Virus record (IMG/VR): IMGVR_UViG_3300036864_000030
Span: 1-41,910 of that record
DNA length: 41,910 nt
Direction: 5' to 3' (one strand)
From: a virus
Numbering within the stretch: the stretch's first letter is position 1; each line of letters starts with the position of its first letter. The notes under the pieces were generated by a model. The model was not told the origin of the DNA. It was given only the letters and a program-made list of their open reading frames with translations, and made no database searches. Both the position numbers and the translations under genes were made by a program. Shown in pieces: positions 6,113-41,025 of this stretch.

Positions 6113-6162
6113 ACCCCCACCCCCGTAAACAACCCCGTCAGGTTGGCCTTAAAAACGGTCAT
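6109..6162 (-). CDS. Possible coupled mini-gene, 17 aa
   Basis: The open frame MTVFKANLTGLFTGVGV starts at an ATG overlapping the upstream TGA (ATGA) and stops in a TGA overlapping the next GTG. It exactly fills the gap between two genes, so ribosomes could pass straight through. Whether the peptide has a function, or the frame only relays ribosomes, cannot be told from the sequence. Confidence 0.35.
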   Translation of the reverse strand: MTVFKANLTGLFTGVGV

Positions 6163-6365
6163 TTTGTTACCTCTACCAATTGCTCTTCAAGCTCCATAAT
6201 TCTGCCTTTAAGTTCTTCAATTTCACTATCTTTTCTGTTCATACACGTAGTACATGGTTCTATCTTGATGGTTCCCTCGGTGTATTTTGCCTGTGATACG
6301 TGGTCGCAAATCCCAGCACCACAGTTCTCACAGTAAACCTGTATGTCTATCATGACACTCGCCAT
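6159..6365 (-). CDS. Cysteine-rich protein with coiled-coil tail, 68 aa
   Basis: The ATG at 6365 has GGAGG seven bases upstream. The frame is open further upstream, but that part translates the tRNA-like element and is not credible. The N-terminal half carries CENCGAGIC and, later, CTTC, giving a probable four-cysteine zinc site. The C-terminal half (DSEIEELKGRIMELEEQLVE) is a clear coiled coil. It is the first gene after the structured RNA. Confidence 0.75.
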   Translation of the reverse strand: MASVMIDIQVYCENCGAGICDHVSQAKYTEGTIKIEPCTTCMNRKDSEIEELKGRIMELEEQLVEVTK

Positions 6366-6395
6366 CTCAAACCCTCCTCTAAAACGTGTGGGAAA

Positions 6396-6466
6396 CCCGG
6401 TAGGCAGGAATTGAACCTGCATCTGGTTAAGCTATTCCCCGTGGTTGCCAATACCACCACTACCGG
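6396..6466 (-). tRNA. tRNA-like element without a normal anticodon arm
   Basis: The minus strand has a seven-pair acceptor stem (CCGGTAG with CTACCGG), a D arm (GTGG with CCAC around TATTGGCAA) and a perfect T arm (GCAGG-TTCAATT-CCTGC). Between D and T arms there are only 20 bases (GGGGAATAGCTTAACCAGAT), and no five-pair anticodon stem can be drawn. No CCA is encoded. It begins six bases downstream of the structured RNA. It may be a decayed tRNA or a tRNA mimic belonging to that RNA. Confidence 0.6.
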
Positions 6467-6471
6467 AAAAT

Positions 6472-7047
6472 GTCTGCCGGGGTGGGCGACATTGACGCCA
6501 ACTTCCCAATCTTTATTTCATCCCCCGACAGACAAAAGGCATGGCTTTTGGTGCTCGTTTCAGTACCATACCCAGGGCGACACCACAGTCGGACAATTAC
6601 CCGTTACTGCACACCGGCGTCCTTTCTTTGTTCAGCCGTTAATTAGACGGCTACAGGCGGTTTTGTCCGCCTCTCAAGCAGTGTCCGGCGTTGACCCGGT
6701 GGTGGTTTCGGGAGCAAGTCCGTATCATGCATAGGACGAGCGTCACACAACTTACCCGTTATAGCCGCCCTACCCTTGCGGCCTCACTGCTTCCGGGTTT
6801 GCAGACGTCCCCGGATATCGCCTGACCTTTTAGGCGACCTCAAACGGTTCTTATGACCGATAGTTCCCTGAACTGCGAATATCGCCAGCGTAGGGCCGCT
6901 GTTTGCGGGAGTGGCCTGTCTAATTTTCCTCCCTGCCACAACAGTTAACGATTGCTGCTCGGCGTGGTCCGTAGACTTTTACACGCTTAGCATGACTCCA
7001 CATGCTTTGACTTTTTTTCATCCTTTCTGCGCAGATGACATTGGGAA
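6472..7047 (-). ncRNA. Large structured non-coding RNA (GOLLD/ROOL-like candidate)
   Basis: About 575 bases hold no credible gene but many stable hairpins on the minus strand. The 3' domain is closed by an 11-pair helix (6533-6523 with 6482-6472, one wobble) around a GGCG/CGCC hairpin. Others lie at 6634-6652 (AGCCGT/ACGGCT), 6656-6671 (GGCGG/CCGCC), 6817-6838 and 6862-6874. Giant ornate RNAs of the GOLLD and ROOL classes are known in phages, have this size, and are often next to tRNAs, as here. The class assignment is inference; the ends are approximate. Confidence 0.65.
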
Positions 7048-7053
7048 CTGTAT

Positions 7054-7488
7054 TTACTTGTCTCGATTCACCTGCACATCAAGCGTCGCCTTCGGTACCG
7101 CGCCGAACTCAAGCAATTTAAAGTCGCCATACTCATGCGCATAGAACCAATTGACCCATGGATTATCGCGCCATGTTCTGGTTGCAAGGATATCTTTGTT
7201 GATCTCCTGAACAACCGTTAGGGCCTTGATGCGTTCATCCGATGACATCTGGTCGTTATCAACGATGCTTGCAAGATACGTCACCTCGACATCGTATTCG
7301 ATCTTGTCACTTTGAAACCTTGAGGGGACAAATAGGATCAAAATGATCGAGATTGCAAGCCCCAGAAACGAAGTACTTCCCAACCCTACCGCAAGGTTTT
7401 CTTTCCACGAGTCGTAGTCAACTACCGACCAGTAAAAGAGTACTCCGCCCAGGACCAACACCCCAACGAATATGAATATTAAAATCAT
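7054..7488 (-). CDS. Membrane protein, 144 aa
   Basis: Two membrane helices occupy the N-terminal half: residues about 1-24 (MILIFIFVGVLVLGGVLFYW) and 34-55 (AVGLGSTSFLGLAISIILIL). A soluble C-terminal domain follows that contains VTYLASIVDNDQMSSDERIK. The start is ATG with AAGGAGGAGGG upstream, a very strong ribosome site. It is immediately upstream of the structured RNA, with the stop at 7054-7056. Function unknown. Confidence 0.75.
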   Translation of the reverse strand: MILIFIFVGVLVLGGVLFYWSVVDYDSWKENLAVGLGSTSFLGLAISIILILFVPSRFQSDKIEYDVEVTYLASIVDNDQMSSDERIKALTVVQEINKDILATRTWRDNPWVNWFYAHEYGDFKLLEFGAVPKATLDVQVNRDK

Positions 7489-7624: not shown

Positions 7625-8101
7625 TTAATAATTCTCTGCTTCAATTCGAGTCAGAAAGAAATGAATACCGCCTGCACATTCTTCGAAACGGTTTTCATCC
7701 CATTCGTGACATTTCACAGTTTCACCCTTGACGTACTCGGTTTTTTGGTCGTGTTTCGAAATGCCCTTTTCTGCACCGAAAACCTGGAGCACCTTCACAA
7801 ACTCAGCACGGCATTTTCGACCTGTTGCGTTTGAACGCTTTGCTTTTGCTGGTATTTTGAGCTTTACGATTACATCGTCGTTGCATTTCTTCCAGCCAAT
7901 CAAGTCGCCTTCGGGCGTGATGATAGTTTGCGCAATGGCATATTCTCCGTTTTTTATTTCCCGGAGGTATGCACCCTGGAGGTCTGCACCCCGGAGGTCT
8001 GCACCCCGGAGGTCTGCACGCTGGCCACCATCTTGACTTCGCATCCACGCCCAATGTTTATTGATTATTTCTGCCAGTTCTTCTTTGGTGTAGGTTTTCA
8101 T
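7625..8101 (-). CDS. Pentapeptide-repeat protein, 158 aa
   Basis: After a helical N-terminus (MKTYTKEELAEIINKHWAWM), residues 29-47 contain at least four pentapeptides of the A(D/Y)LxG type. They are encoded by tandem 15-base repeats around 7973-8026. The C-terminal two thirds are unrelated to the repeats, with a predicted beta fold. Pentapeptide arrays often mediate DNA mimicry or protein contacts; this array is too short for a full quadrilateral helix. The gene stands directly behind the operator-bearing promoter at 8120-8148. Confidence 0.75.
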   Translation of the reverse strand: MKTYTKEELAEIINKHWAWMRSQDGGQRADLRGADLRGADLQGAYLREIKNGEYAIAQTIITPEGDLIGWKKCNDDVIVKLKIPAKAKRSNATGRKCRAEFVKVLQVFGAEKGISKHDQKTEYVKGETVKCHEWDENRFEECAGGIHFFLTRIEAENY

Positions 8102-8119
8102 TTCATCCCCTTCCCATAC

Positions 8120-8148
8120 ACATTAGCATATACATTGTATATTTGCAA
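8120..8148 (-). promoter_or_regulatory. Promoter C with inverted-repeat operator
   Basis: Minus strand TTGCAA (8148-8143), 17 bases, TAATGT (8125-8120). The spacer holds the perfect inverted repeat TATAC-ATT-GTATA at 8129-8141. The arrangement from TTGCAAATATAC through GTATA-GC-TA matches the promoter at 14207-14235. It would start transcription near 8113, just ahead of the pentapeptide-repeat gene. Confidence 0.7.
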
Positions 8149-8151
8149 GTG

Positions 8152-8918: not shown

Positions 8919-9807
8919 GGTTTTCTCCGTACAGTTCTTTGAATCGCTTAGCGTGCTCTTCCTCGGAAATGGTTTGTTGTTGGCCATGCTTGCTGGCGAA
9001 TACTTCTAAGGGTTTAGCTACCGAAATGTGTACCCCTATTCCCTTGGTTAGAAATCCAACCGGCGTTGCATAGGTCCACGGCTTGTATGTCGAAAGATCG
9101 CTTTTGAGTTTGATGTAATTTTCGAGGGATTGAACAATCTCCTCCGGGGTGTAACAACTCATGCTATCGTACATCGGCCCTTGTTCGTGTGTTGGAATGT
9201 TGAGACGTGTTTTTCTAAATGGTGGTAGGCATCCTGAGTCGTCCCAAGCTTGGATAAAGTTGGTTACTTCCTGTGGATCTATTTCGCGTCTGGCTGTTTT
9301 TATTGGAGGAGAAAATTGCTCACTTTCACCACTATTGGTTTGTTGATCTTGTTGGTAATCTTTGTTGGTTGGTATTGTTGGTAGACGGAATTCTTTGGAA
9401 TTTTCCGAGAAATTCTTGGAAGATTCTGTAAGTCTTTGCTCTACAGCGACTTGTATAGATTTAAGTTTTTCGTTCTTAATTTGAGCCGAAGAAACCCGGC
9501 GAGCGAGCTGTAAGCAGAATATTTTTCCATGATCTTCTTGGAAGAGGTTTAAGGAAATGATTTTCAACATTATTTCTTCCACTCTATCCCGACCTGATTG
9601 CGTGCCGGTGCCCTTGATTTTTAGATTGTCGGCGATGATTTCGGAATCATGTTCAAGCTCGAAATTGATGTGATTTTCGTTGATGTCTGACGCGATAAGT
9701 TCGAGACAGTGAAAATAAACCGCGTACCCTTCCGCGCCGTAAGCGAGGATGAGCTTCTTTATTTTTGCGTCACTACTGGCGTTGGATTCGTGAGCGAACC
9801 ACTTCAT
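8905..9807 (-). CDS. Replication initiator, Lin1244/Lin1753-type N-domain, 300 aa
   Basis: Residues 1 to about 100 begin MKWFAHESNASSDAKIKKLI and include GAEGYAVYFHCLELIA. This is the signature of the Lin1244/Lin1753-like (DUF4373) domain found at the N-terminus of phage and plasmid replication initiation proteins. The C-terminal part (YTPEEIVQSLENYIKLKSDL and following) resembles a DnaD-like tail. The linker is Gln/Ser rich. The protein probably binds an origin and recruits the host helicase. ATG overlaps the stop of the HNH gene as ATGA. No origin repeats were identified. Confidence 0.75.
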   Translation of the reverse strand: MKWFAHESNASSDAKIKKLILAYGAEGYAVYFHCLELIASDINENHINFELEHDSEIIADNLKIKGTGTQSGRDRVEEIMLKIISLNLFQEDHGKIFCLQLARRVSSAQIKNEKLKSIQVAVEQRLTESSKNFSENSKEFRLPTIPTNKDYQQDQQTNSGESEQFSPPIKTARREIDPQEVTNFIQAWDDSGCLPPFRKTRLNIPTHEQGPMYDSMSCYTPEEIVQSLENYIKLKSDLSTYKPWTYATPVGFLTKGIGVHISVAKPLEVFASKHGQQQTISEEEHAKRFKELYGENHDQN

Positions 9808-10265
9808 ATTATCCTGCCAAATTCACCATGATATTTTACGGAAGCGTCGCAATATACTTGATAAGCCTCTTCTGGCGTGGTGTAACGACCAAGATATATG
9901 CGCTTGCCGTTAAATCTTATTTGGGCACAATATTTTTTTGTTGTTTTGCATCTACCATCTTTGTAAACACCCTTAAATCCAGTTGCGTTATTAGAATGCA
10001 TCTTTCTATTCCGCATGTTCTGACTATGTGTACAAAGCCTTAAATTGACCCTTCGGTTATCTAAGCCGTTACCATTTATATGGTCAACCATCACGCCGTT
10101 AGGAGCTTGAGTTATTAATCTATGCATTAATACGGGTTCGCCATCTATAGTAGCGACCGCGTACTTAAGCCCTCTGCGGGAGTTTATATGCCATTGGTAT
10201 TTAGAAACCAAGTCATAATCATTATCATCCACAAACGATTTAGAATCTGAAATTAGAAGTTCCAA
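9804..10265 (-). CDS. HNH homing endonuclease with AP2 domain, about 153 aa
   Basis: The protein has a phage HNH core (MHRLITQAPNGVMVDHINGN, then LDNRRVNLRLC) and a C-terminal AP2-type DNA-binding domain (NNATGFKGVYKDG to YLGRYTTPEEAYQVY). These free-standing homing endonucleases cut near their own insertion site. The frame is open to 10325, but that part encodes the terminator hairpin of the upstream small RNA. I therefore prefer the TTG at 10265, which has GGAG five bases upstream. Its end is coupled by ATGA to the replication initiator. Confidence 0.8.
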   Translation of the reverse strand: MELLISDSKSFVDDNDYDLVSKYQWHINSRRGLKYAVATIDGEPVLMHRLITQAPNGVMVDHINGNGLDNRRVNLRLCTHSQNMRNRKMHSNNATGFKGVYKDGRCKTTKKYCAQIRFNGKRIYLGRYTTPEEAYQVYCDASVKYHGEFGRII

Positions 10266-10277
10266 AGTATCTCCAGA

Positions 10278-10320
10278 AAAATAAAAAGCCCGGTCTGGTG
10301 CACTACTACCAAAACCGGGC
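10278..10320 (-). terminator. Intrinsic terminator
   Basis: Minus strand GCCCGGT (10320-10314) pairs with ACCGGGC (10294-10288). The inner TTTGGT and ACCAG extend the stem, and TTTTT followed by ATTTTT comes next. It ends the small RNA before the HNH gene. Confidence 0.8.
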
Positions 10321-10381
10321 AACATATTCGAAATCGAGCGGGAAAGGTAGTGCTGCTTTCCGACTCGATCTAACTAATTTT
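10279..10381 (-). ncRNA. Small RNA of about 100 nt with complementary loops
   Basis: A self-contained unit: a near-consensus promoter (10387-10415), no credible gene, and an intrinsic terminator at 10278-10320. The first hairpin spans 10333-10369 (ATCGAG with CTCGAT, then GGAAAG with CTTTCC). Its loop contains GCACTAC (10353-10347). The terminator hairpin contains GTAGTGC (10306-10300), its exact complement, so the loops can kiss. Seven matched bases between two short loops are unlikely by chance. The target is unknown. Confidence 0.65.
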
Positions 10382-10512: not shown

Positions 10513-10746
10513 TCAAACCGATGCGGTCGGAAAGATTTGAACTTTCACGCCAATGGCGCCAGGTCTTAAGCCCGGTGTGTCTACCGTTTCACCACGACCG
10601 CTTATAAGCGTTTTAATATATTTCGAATGGACCGACCCTGTCCTGCCAGTTTTAAGCATATGCTTCGGCTTTGACTTTCGACCGAACCGAAGTACTTGTT
10701 TATTTTGCCTTCTCTTACGTCTGCCGCGAGACTTATTTTTGCTCAT
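10513..10746 (-). CDS. Very basic small protein whose frame runs through tRNA-Leu, 77 aa
   Basis: ATG at 10746 has AAGGAG six bases upstream. The N-terminus (MSKNKSRGRRKRRQNKQ) is extremely basic and probably binds nucleic acid. From about residue 49 the frame reads through the entire tRNA-Leu gene and stops at 10513, just past it. The tRNA-encoded part cannot be under normal protein selection. The gene may be real with a tRNA-derived tail, or the tRNA may have been inserted into an older gene. Confidence 0.5.
   Translation of the reverse strand: MSKNKSRGRRKRRQNKQVLRFGRKSKPKHMLKTGRTGSVHSKYIKTLISGRGETVDTPGLRPGAIGVKVQIFPTASV
10522..10601 (-). tRNA. tRNA-Leu (anticodon UAA)
   Basis: Minus strand: acceptor GCGGTCG pairs with CGACCGC, discriminator A. 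The anticodon arm CCGGG-CTTAAGA-CCTGG gives anticodon TAA, reading UUA and UUG. The long variable arm CGCC-ATT-GGCG is characteristic of tRNA-Leu. The T arm is GAAAG-TTCAAAT-CTTTC. The 3' CCA is not encoded and must be added by the host enzyme. All arms are intact, so it should be functional. Confidence 0.9.
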
Positions 10747-14206: not shown

Positions 14207-14235
14207 ATTATAGCGTATACAAAGTATATTTGCAA
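14207..14235 (-). promoter_or_regulatory. Promoter B with inverted-repeat operator
   Basis: Minus strand TTGCAA (14235-14230), 17 bases, TATAAT (14212-14207): an almost perfect sigma70 promoter. Its spacer holds TATAC-AAA-GTATA (14216-14228), the same inverted repeat as promoters A and C. It drives the recombination and replication operon. A protein bound there would block polymerase directly, so the operon is probably repressible. Confidence 0.85.
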
Positions 14236-14240
14236 GCATA

Positions 14241-37707: not shown

Positions 37708-37725
37708 ATCCACCTCTTGATATAC

Positions 37726-37753
37726 AGTATACATAGTATATATGCATTTGCAA
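37726..37753 (-). promoter_or_regulatory. Promoter A with inverted-repeat operator
   Basis: Minus strand TTGCAA (37753-37748), 16 bases, TATACT (37731-37726). The operator TATAC-ATA-GTATA (37728-37740) overlaps the -10 element here, and a second TATAC-A-GTATA lies at 37721-37731. It would start the unit containing the two tiny proteins, the zinc-protease-like protein and possibly the portal and capsid genes. Confidence 0.7.
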
Positions 37754-40521: not shown

Positions 40522-41025
40522 CTATTGATCGATCCAAGATTTACCACTCATTATTTTATAAATAGCGTTCTTACTTACGGAGAAATGGGCAGCTATTTTT
40601 GAATAGGAAATACCTTCGTTGCTCATACGCTTAATTGTTTCTACGTCTTCATTTCTTAACTTGGATTTACCGTTATTTTCACCACGTATTAGAAGTCCCT
40701 GTTTCTTTGTTGCCCCATGGCTTATAGCATCTTGAACATTCTCCGACCTATTGCCCCAGCAAAGATTTGAAATCTTATTGTTTGTTTTTACCCCATCAAG
40801 ATGTCTAATCTCATTTTTACCAATAGGCGGATTGCCTAAAAAAGCAAGCGCGACCAATCTATGGACCCTTTCGTGCTTAGCTCCAAAAGTTATCATTAAA
40901 TACCCATCTTGCAAGTAAGGTGCTCTAATTTTACCAACAACAGCACCGGCCCCAGCGATGGACCTCCTTACAATGCCCTTGTCTGATACCTCATAATTTT
41001 CATAGCCTGGAATAACCTTCCACAT
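40522..41025 (-). CDS. NUMOD4-HNH homing endonuclease, 167 aa
   Basis: The N-terminal NUMOD4 motif (WKVIPGYENYEVSDKGIVRR), the HNH core (VHRLVALAFLGNP, IRHLDGVKTNNKISNLCWG) and a C-terminal helix-turn-helix (ISYSKIAAHFSVSKNAIYKI) are the three parts of a phage free-standing homing endonuclease. It ends directly beside a tRNA remnant. ATG 41025 has GAGGAG about ten bases upstream. A hairpin ATTAGG/CCTAAT lies just before it, and a weak promoter-like sequence upstream (TTGTGT-17-TACCCT) is not listed. No intron boundaries were seen. Confidence 0.85.
   Translation of the reverse strand: MWKVIPGYENYEVSDKGIVRRSIAGAGAVVGKIRAPYLQDGYLMITFGAKHERVHRLVALAFLGNPPIGKNEIRHLDGVKTNNKISNLCWGNRSENVQDAISHGATKKQGLLIRGENNGKSKLRNEDVETIKRMSNEGISYSKIAAHFSVSKNAIYKIMSGKSWIDQ

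Follow-up and report, generated by a model that had tools for sequence, protein, structure and literature searches.

What is encoded by a stretch of 586 nt that lies among the genes of a small phage and has no gene of its own? The window analysed here, 41,910 bases long, comprises an entire virus record, which encodes a head-tail connector, T7-type tail proteins, a terminase, RecT and a YqaJ exonuclease, and is a podovirus-type contig of a small, lytic-type phage. An initial annotation had singled out about 575 bases of the minus strand, at 6472–7047, as a large structured non-coding RNA, probably of the GOLLD/ROOL type. The location stood, while the limits are better set at 6468–7053, where the candidate fills the whole gap from the stop codon of the upstream gene (7054) to a tRNA-like element (6396–6467):

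7054–7488, minus strand: upstream gene, 144 amino acids, without a family match; its stop codon directly adjoins the RNA
6468–7053 (586 nt), minus strand: candidate large non-coding RNA body, marked by the absence of coding signal, a G+C peak and its folding z-score
6396–6467, minus strand: tRNA-like element, seen in the sequence and by ARAGORN, comprising an acceptor of 7 pairs, a GG-containing D arm and the T arm GCAGG-UUCAAUU-CCUGC
6159–6365, minus strand: downstream gene, its start probably at 6365 behind a GGAGG site

A gap without coding signal

The region carries no credible gene, as had been proposed. Each of its six frames contains 4–11 stops and has a negative codon score under a model derived from the genes of the contig itself, by which most of the neighbouring genes score positively. 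The longest ATG/GTG/TTG ORFs within it have 51 (minus strand) and 58 (plus strand) amino acids, any longer ones on the plus strand overlap its edges only, and a Pfam search of the ORFs inside it gave no match. In this single sequence there is neither the coding signal nor the family match of a conserved protein. If minus-strand ORFs of 60 amino acids or more are counted, the region is the sole ORF-free gap longer than 200 nt in the 41.9-kb contig. Its composition also stands out, with a G+C content of 53.8% compared to a contig mean of 46.3%. Among 580-nt windows taken contig-wide it ranks 6th of 2067 in G+C, and all of the higher-ranked windows overlap it.

Neither 50,697 phages nor 72,556 plasmids contained a homologue in blastn searches at E up to 10, which gave one short chance match each; these collections may not include records very close to the contig. 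None was present in the 16 phage or viral records that were reached through shared proteins or patterns. No relatives were found through the protein of the upstream gene (7054–7488), the YqaJ exonuclease led to unrelated phages with little else in common, and the portal relatives found were 28–36% identical, about 36% being the highest value. DNA-pattern scans of viral contigs and genomes gave no homologue either. These scans are weak negatives, because most of the patterns were built on an internal repeat that lies within chance. The repeat, UAACGGGUAA(G)UUGUNNGAC at 6588–6606 and 6742–6761, guided four collection scans and was withdrawn, as 41 of 150 shuffles scored equally in gapped self-alignment. 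The structure described below is therefore a prediction from one sequence, and the RNA a candidate.

Predicted folding and helices of the 586-nt region

Read on the minus strand, the region has a predicted folding energy of −210.6 kcal/mol compared to −191.8 kcal/mol in shuffles (z −2.75), with none of 100 shuffles as stable, as would be expected of a large structured RNA. The plus strand has a z-score of −3.33 and was better than all 100 of its shuffles. In a ranking by z-score that included other 586-nt windows from the contig, the minus strand came third of 27 and the plus strand first of 26, and within the region folding in 160-nt local windows was mostly ordinary. The z-score is moderate, and not better than that of the opposite strand. 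As both strands fold beyond shuffles, strand assignment rests on context and not on energy, and it is from the genes and the promoter-operator upstream that we infer an origin on the minus strand. The predicted elements on this strand are as follows, in 5′ to 3′ order of the RNA:

7040–7050, minus strand: 5′ strand (CAG-UUCCCAAU) of a possible closing helix, 8 pairs with 6503–6510 and 3 past a bulge
6962–6986, minus strand: hairpin GCGUG-UAAAA-GUC-UACG-GAC-CACGC with a UNCG-type tetraloop, C(UACG)G; pairing probability 0.99
6817–6838, minus strand: 7-pair hairpin; pairing probability 0.97
6792–6815, minus strand: 6-pair hairpin, its loop containing the palindrome GACGUC; pairing probability 0.91
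6577–6787, minus strand: central multi-helix domain of the minimum-energy fold, closed by GUGA/UCGC and GCCGCA/UGUGGU; probabilities about 0.8
6633–6672, minus strand: neighbouring hairpins of 6 and 7 pairs in the central domain; pairing probabilities 0.99 and 0.90
6523–6534, minus strand: 5′ strand (UGUCUGUCGGGG) of the 12-pair helix of the 3′ domain, from the stem list; as strong in 1 of 200 shuffles
6499–6510, minus strand: 3′ strand of the same possible end helix, situated between the two strands of the 12-pair helix, as read from the stems
6471–6482, minus strand: 3′ strand (CCCCGGCAGACA) of the 12-pair helix, from the stem list and shuffles

The strongest single helix (6534–6523 with 6482–6471) was equalled in only one of 200 shuffles. 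The initial annotation had described it as an 11-pair helix closing a 3′ domain; the sequence does allow such a helix, with 12 pairs, one of them G-U. At least five clear hairpins had likewise been noted, and five local hairpins are indeed predicted with a pairing probability of at least 0.9 (6986–6962, 6838–6817, 6815–6792, 6672–6655 and 6653–6633). The GACGUC loop of the hairpin at 6792–6815 is a possible self-kissing loop in this model, where the palindrome alone is not significant.

The two ends of the RNA can form 8 Watson-Crick pairs (7047–7040 with 6510–6503), and three further pairs are readable from the sequence beyond a one-base bulge. This match had been reported with the caution that it might be chance, which was well placed, since an end match of 8 bases arises in 9 of 200 shuffles. 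Because the loop of the 12-pair helix contains the 3′ strand of the end helix, the two would make a pseudoknot if both form. A pseudoknot that ties the ends of the RNA together is thus only suggestive.

The tRNA-like element and a probable shared transcript

The tRNA-like neighbour was correctly recognized as far as its acceptor (7 pairs), D arm and T arm are concerned, all of which are perfect. Its anticodon arm is not canonical: inspection of GGGGAAUAGCUUAACC for a five-pair stem with a seven-base loop found none. ARAGORN called 6395–6481 as a tRNA-Pro of doubtful geometry, a reading that we rejected, as the supposed anticodon arm is better taken as a D arm whose loop contains GG. The Rfam tRNA model did not report 6396–6467, while the same model scored the tRNA-Leu of the phage at 54.8 bits. 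The element therefore has neither the anticodon stem-loop nor the above-cut-off score of a functional tRNA. An integration site at a tRNA was also considered and rejected, with no integrase among the large proteins scanned.

In a 131-base scan the sub-threshold Rfam matches were skipping-rope RNA (22.1 bits) and tRNA-Sec (19.1 bits). The element aligns over the full skipping-rope model (RF02924) with AGAUGC conserved, but its score is below the 36.7-bit threshold and it has neither the GAGG/GGAAA nor the CGCCGCCC signature. Both are loops present in most of 29 skipping-rope matches from Bacilli genomes, the second as a CGCCGCCC-type sequence, and the 29 are not located just 3′ of a large non-coding gap. 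The low score and the missing loops led us to reject this identity. Skipping-rope RNAs, which have a tRNA-like cloverleaf layout, were present in 25 of 399 Bacilli genomes, one of which held four copies.

Another parallel may lie in MALAT1 and mascRNA, where RNase P cuts at a tRNA-like element and so makes the 3′ end of the long RNA. The phage element shares the tRNA-like fold, the abnormal anticodon arm and the position directly 3′ of a long structured RNA. Its match to the mascRNA model, however, is at chance level (12.6 bits), and the likeness is one of analogy only.

No minus-strand promoter or terminator match was found between 6000 and 7700, so that a free RNA would need to be cut from a longer transcript. 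A candidate promoter is present on the same strand, about 1.07 kb upstream:

8118–8149, minus strand: likely sigma-70 promoter with a palindromic operator (TTGCAA-N17-TAATGT, TATAC-N3-GTATA), a repeated element

The TATAC-N3-GTATA operator within a sigma-70-like promoter occurs in three minus-strand copies (8124–8149, 14211–14236 and 37723–37748), which from their sequences probably constitute a phage regulon. The copy at 14211 reads TTGCAA-N17-TATAAT and is followed after ~6 bases by an ATG, an arrangement that suggests a leaderless transcript from this promoter.

We consider it reasonably probable that 6468–7053 encodes, on the minus strand, a large structured non-coding RNA that belongs to no described family and is contained in a polycistronic transcript. 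For its transcription, processing and function we infer the following. Transcription of this message would probably start at the operator-controlled promoter near 8149. The tRNA-like element, with acceptor and T arms intact, would be the most likely processing signal, and cleavage by RNase P before 6467 would leave the 3′ end of the RNA a few bases past the 12-pair helix. The released RNA would work in folded form during infection, most plausibly in a structural or protein-binding role; by analogy with GOLLD and ROOL, self-assembly is possible. More specifically, and tentatively, the RNA could represent a new class of large phage RNAs that has no sequence relationship with GOLLD and ROOL, in which RNase P generates the 3′ end at a dedicated tRNA-like element and the pseudoknot ties the two ends together.

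Could the region instead be a decayed or captured tRNA region, that is, a dying tRNA followed by 586 nt of non-functional spacer of foreign, G+C-richer origin? The broken anticodon arm, the composition unlike that of the phage and the lack of a homologue would all fit such an origin. Decay, however, would have spared the acceptor, D and T arms, which are perfect, and the spacer folds more stably than every one of its 100 shuffles. Moreover, compact phage genomes rarely retain 586 useless bases. We regard this explanation as unlikely.

A cis-acting element in place of a free RNA, either a long structured leader or intercistronic region that controls the expression of genes downstream, or a replication or packaging element at the DNA level, appears improbable. 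The region does sit in an apparently co-transcribed series of genes and lacks a promoter or terminator match of its own, and the equal folding of its two strands is what inverted repeats at the DNA level would give. The local GC skew also flips sign, but it does so about 1.5 kb off and not at the element. In addition, the helices are spread out and imperfect, not iteron-like, and a search for repeats gave no repeat family within the region.

Relation to known large RNAs

The non-coding RNA gene that we favour must also be compared with RNAs of known family. In an Rfam search of the whole contig only a tRNA-Leu, elsewhere, scored above threshold. This is a good tRNA-Leu (UAA) gene at 10522–10601 on the minus strand, far from the tRNA-like element. 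No Rfam model match was found for group I or group II introns, RNase P RNA or tmRNA, and permissive Rfam scans of pieces of the region gave chance-level matches only, with no large-RNA family among them.

GOLLD and ROOL are phage-borne RNAs, located near tRNA islands, that form RNA-only cages (PMC12286853). Searching with both covariance models had been recommended when the region was first annotated, and this was done. Neither the ROOL model (RF03087, threshold 99.1 bits) nor the GOLLD model (RF02032, with its conserved 3′ domain) matched at E up to 10, and the label of GOLLD/ROOL type, taken as membership, finds no support. For ROOL there is a positive control, as the published ROOL of Ligilactobacillus salivarius pMP118 scored 130.4 bits with the same library. 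The GOLLD negative consists of one model search and the regional scans, and 399 Bacilli genomes yielded no GOLLD as a control. What is supported from the initial annotation, as the best reading, is a large structured non-coding RNA beside a tRNA-like element in the non-structural region of the phage, one that corresponds to no Rfam family.

It is highly improbable that the region encodes a distant member of the GOLLD/ROOL class that forms a multimeric RNA cage. ROOL is similar in length (about 570 nt, 574 model positions), in its lack of protein coding and in its phage or prophage context, often near tRNAs. The adjoining tRNA-like element gives our region such a location too, although this is not specific to ROOL. 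GOLLD is also a large phage RNA that is often near tRNAs, but its members often exceed 800 nt, compared to 586 nt here. Three hairpin loops of the region contain 6-nt palindromes that could kiss, although by our estimate such loops are expected at about this rate by chance. Against these resemblances stands the silence of both models, at E up to 10 and in the permissive scans, where the same library readily found a known ROOL. ROOL forms an octameric RNA-only cage, and GOLLD assembles as a 14-mer and rises in expression during lysis.

A plus-strand RNA antisense to the operon is equally hard to credit: the plus strand folds as well or better and has a terminator-like hairpin with a T run at 6989–7018, but the count of terminator-like sites is near chance, an A-C mismatch interrupts the 12-pair helix when it is read on that strand, and the minus strand carries the large and family-assigned genes, the two tRNA calls and the promoter-operators.

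Only a few classes of large phage RNA have been described. If the region does encode a large minus-strand RNA, an orphan in a compact podovirus-type genome would suggest that such RNAs arose several times, and its tRNA-like element would offer a direct hypothesis for how the 3′ ends of large phage RNAs are formed. Similar cases are an unclassified ~800-nt RNA of phage ICP1, which is its most abundant transcript (PMC7567579), and two long RNAs near tRNA genes in phage K (PMC9241854). Like 6468–7053 these are large, unclassified and located in ORF-free gaps, and they are abundant. They differ in having no sequence similarity to 6468–7053, as judged in the phage collection, and the ICP1 RNA has no adjoining tRNA, unlike the region described here.

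Several other features of the contig were observed. A pentapeptide-repeat protein with a DUF5758 domain is encoded at 7625–8101, and near 7964–8022 there are several near-identical DNA units of the GCACCCCGGAGGTCT type. Two HNH endonuclease genes (9804–10325 and 40522–41025), one with an AP2-like domain, are likely homing endonucleases. A 37-nt direct repeat, 81% identical, lies near the contig ends (10–46 and 41746–41782) and possibly derives from paralogous genes.
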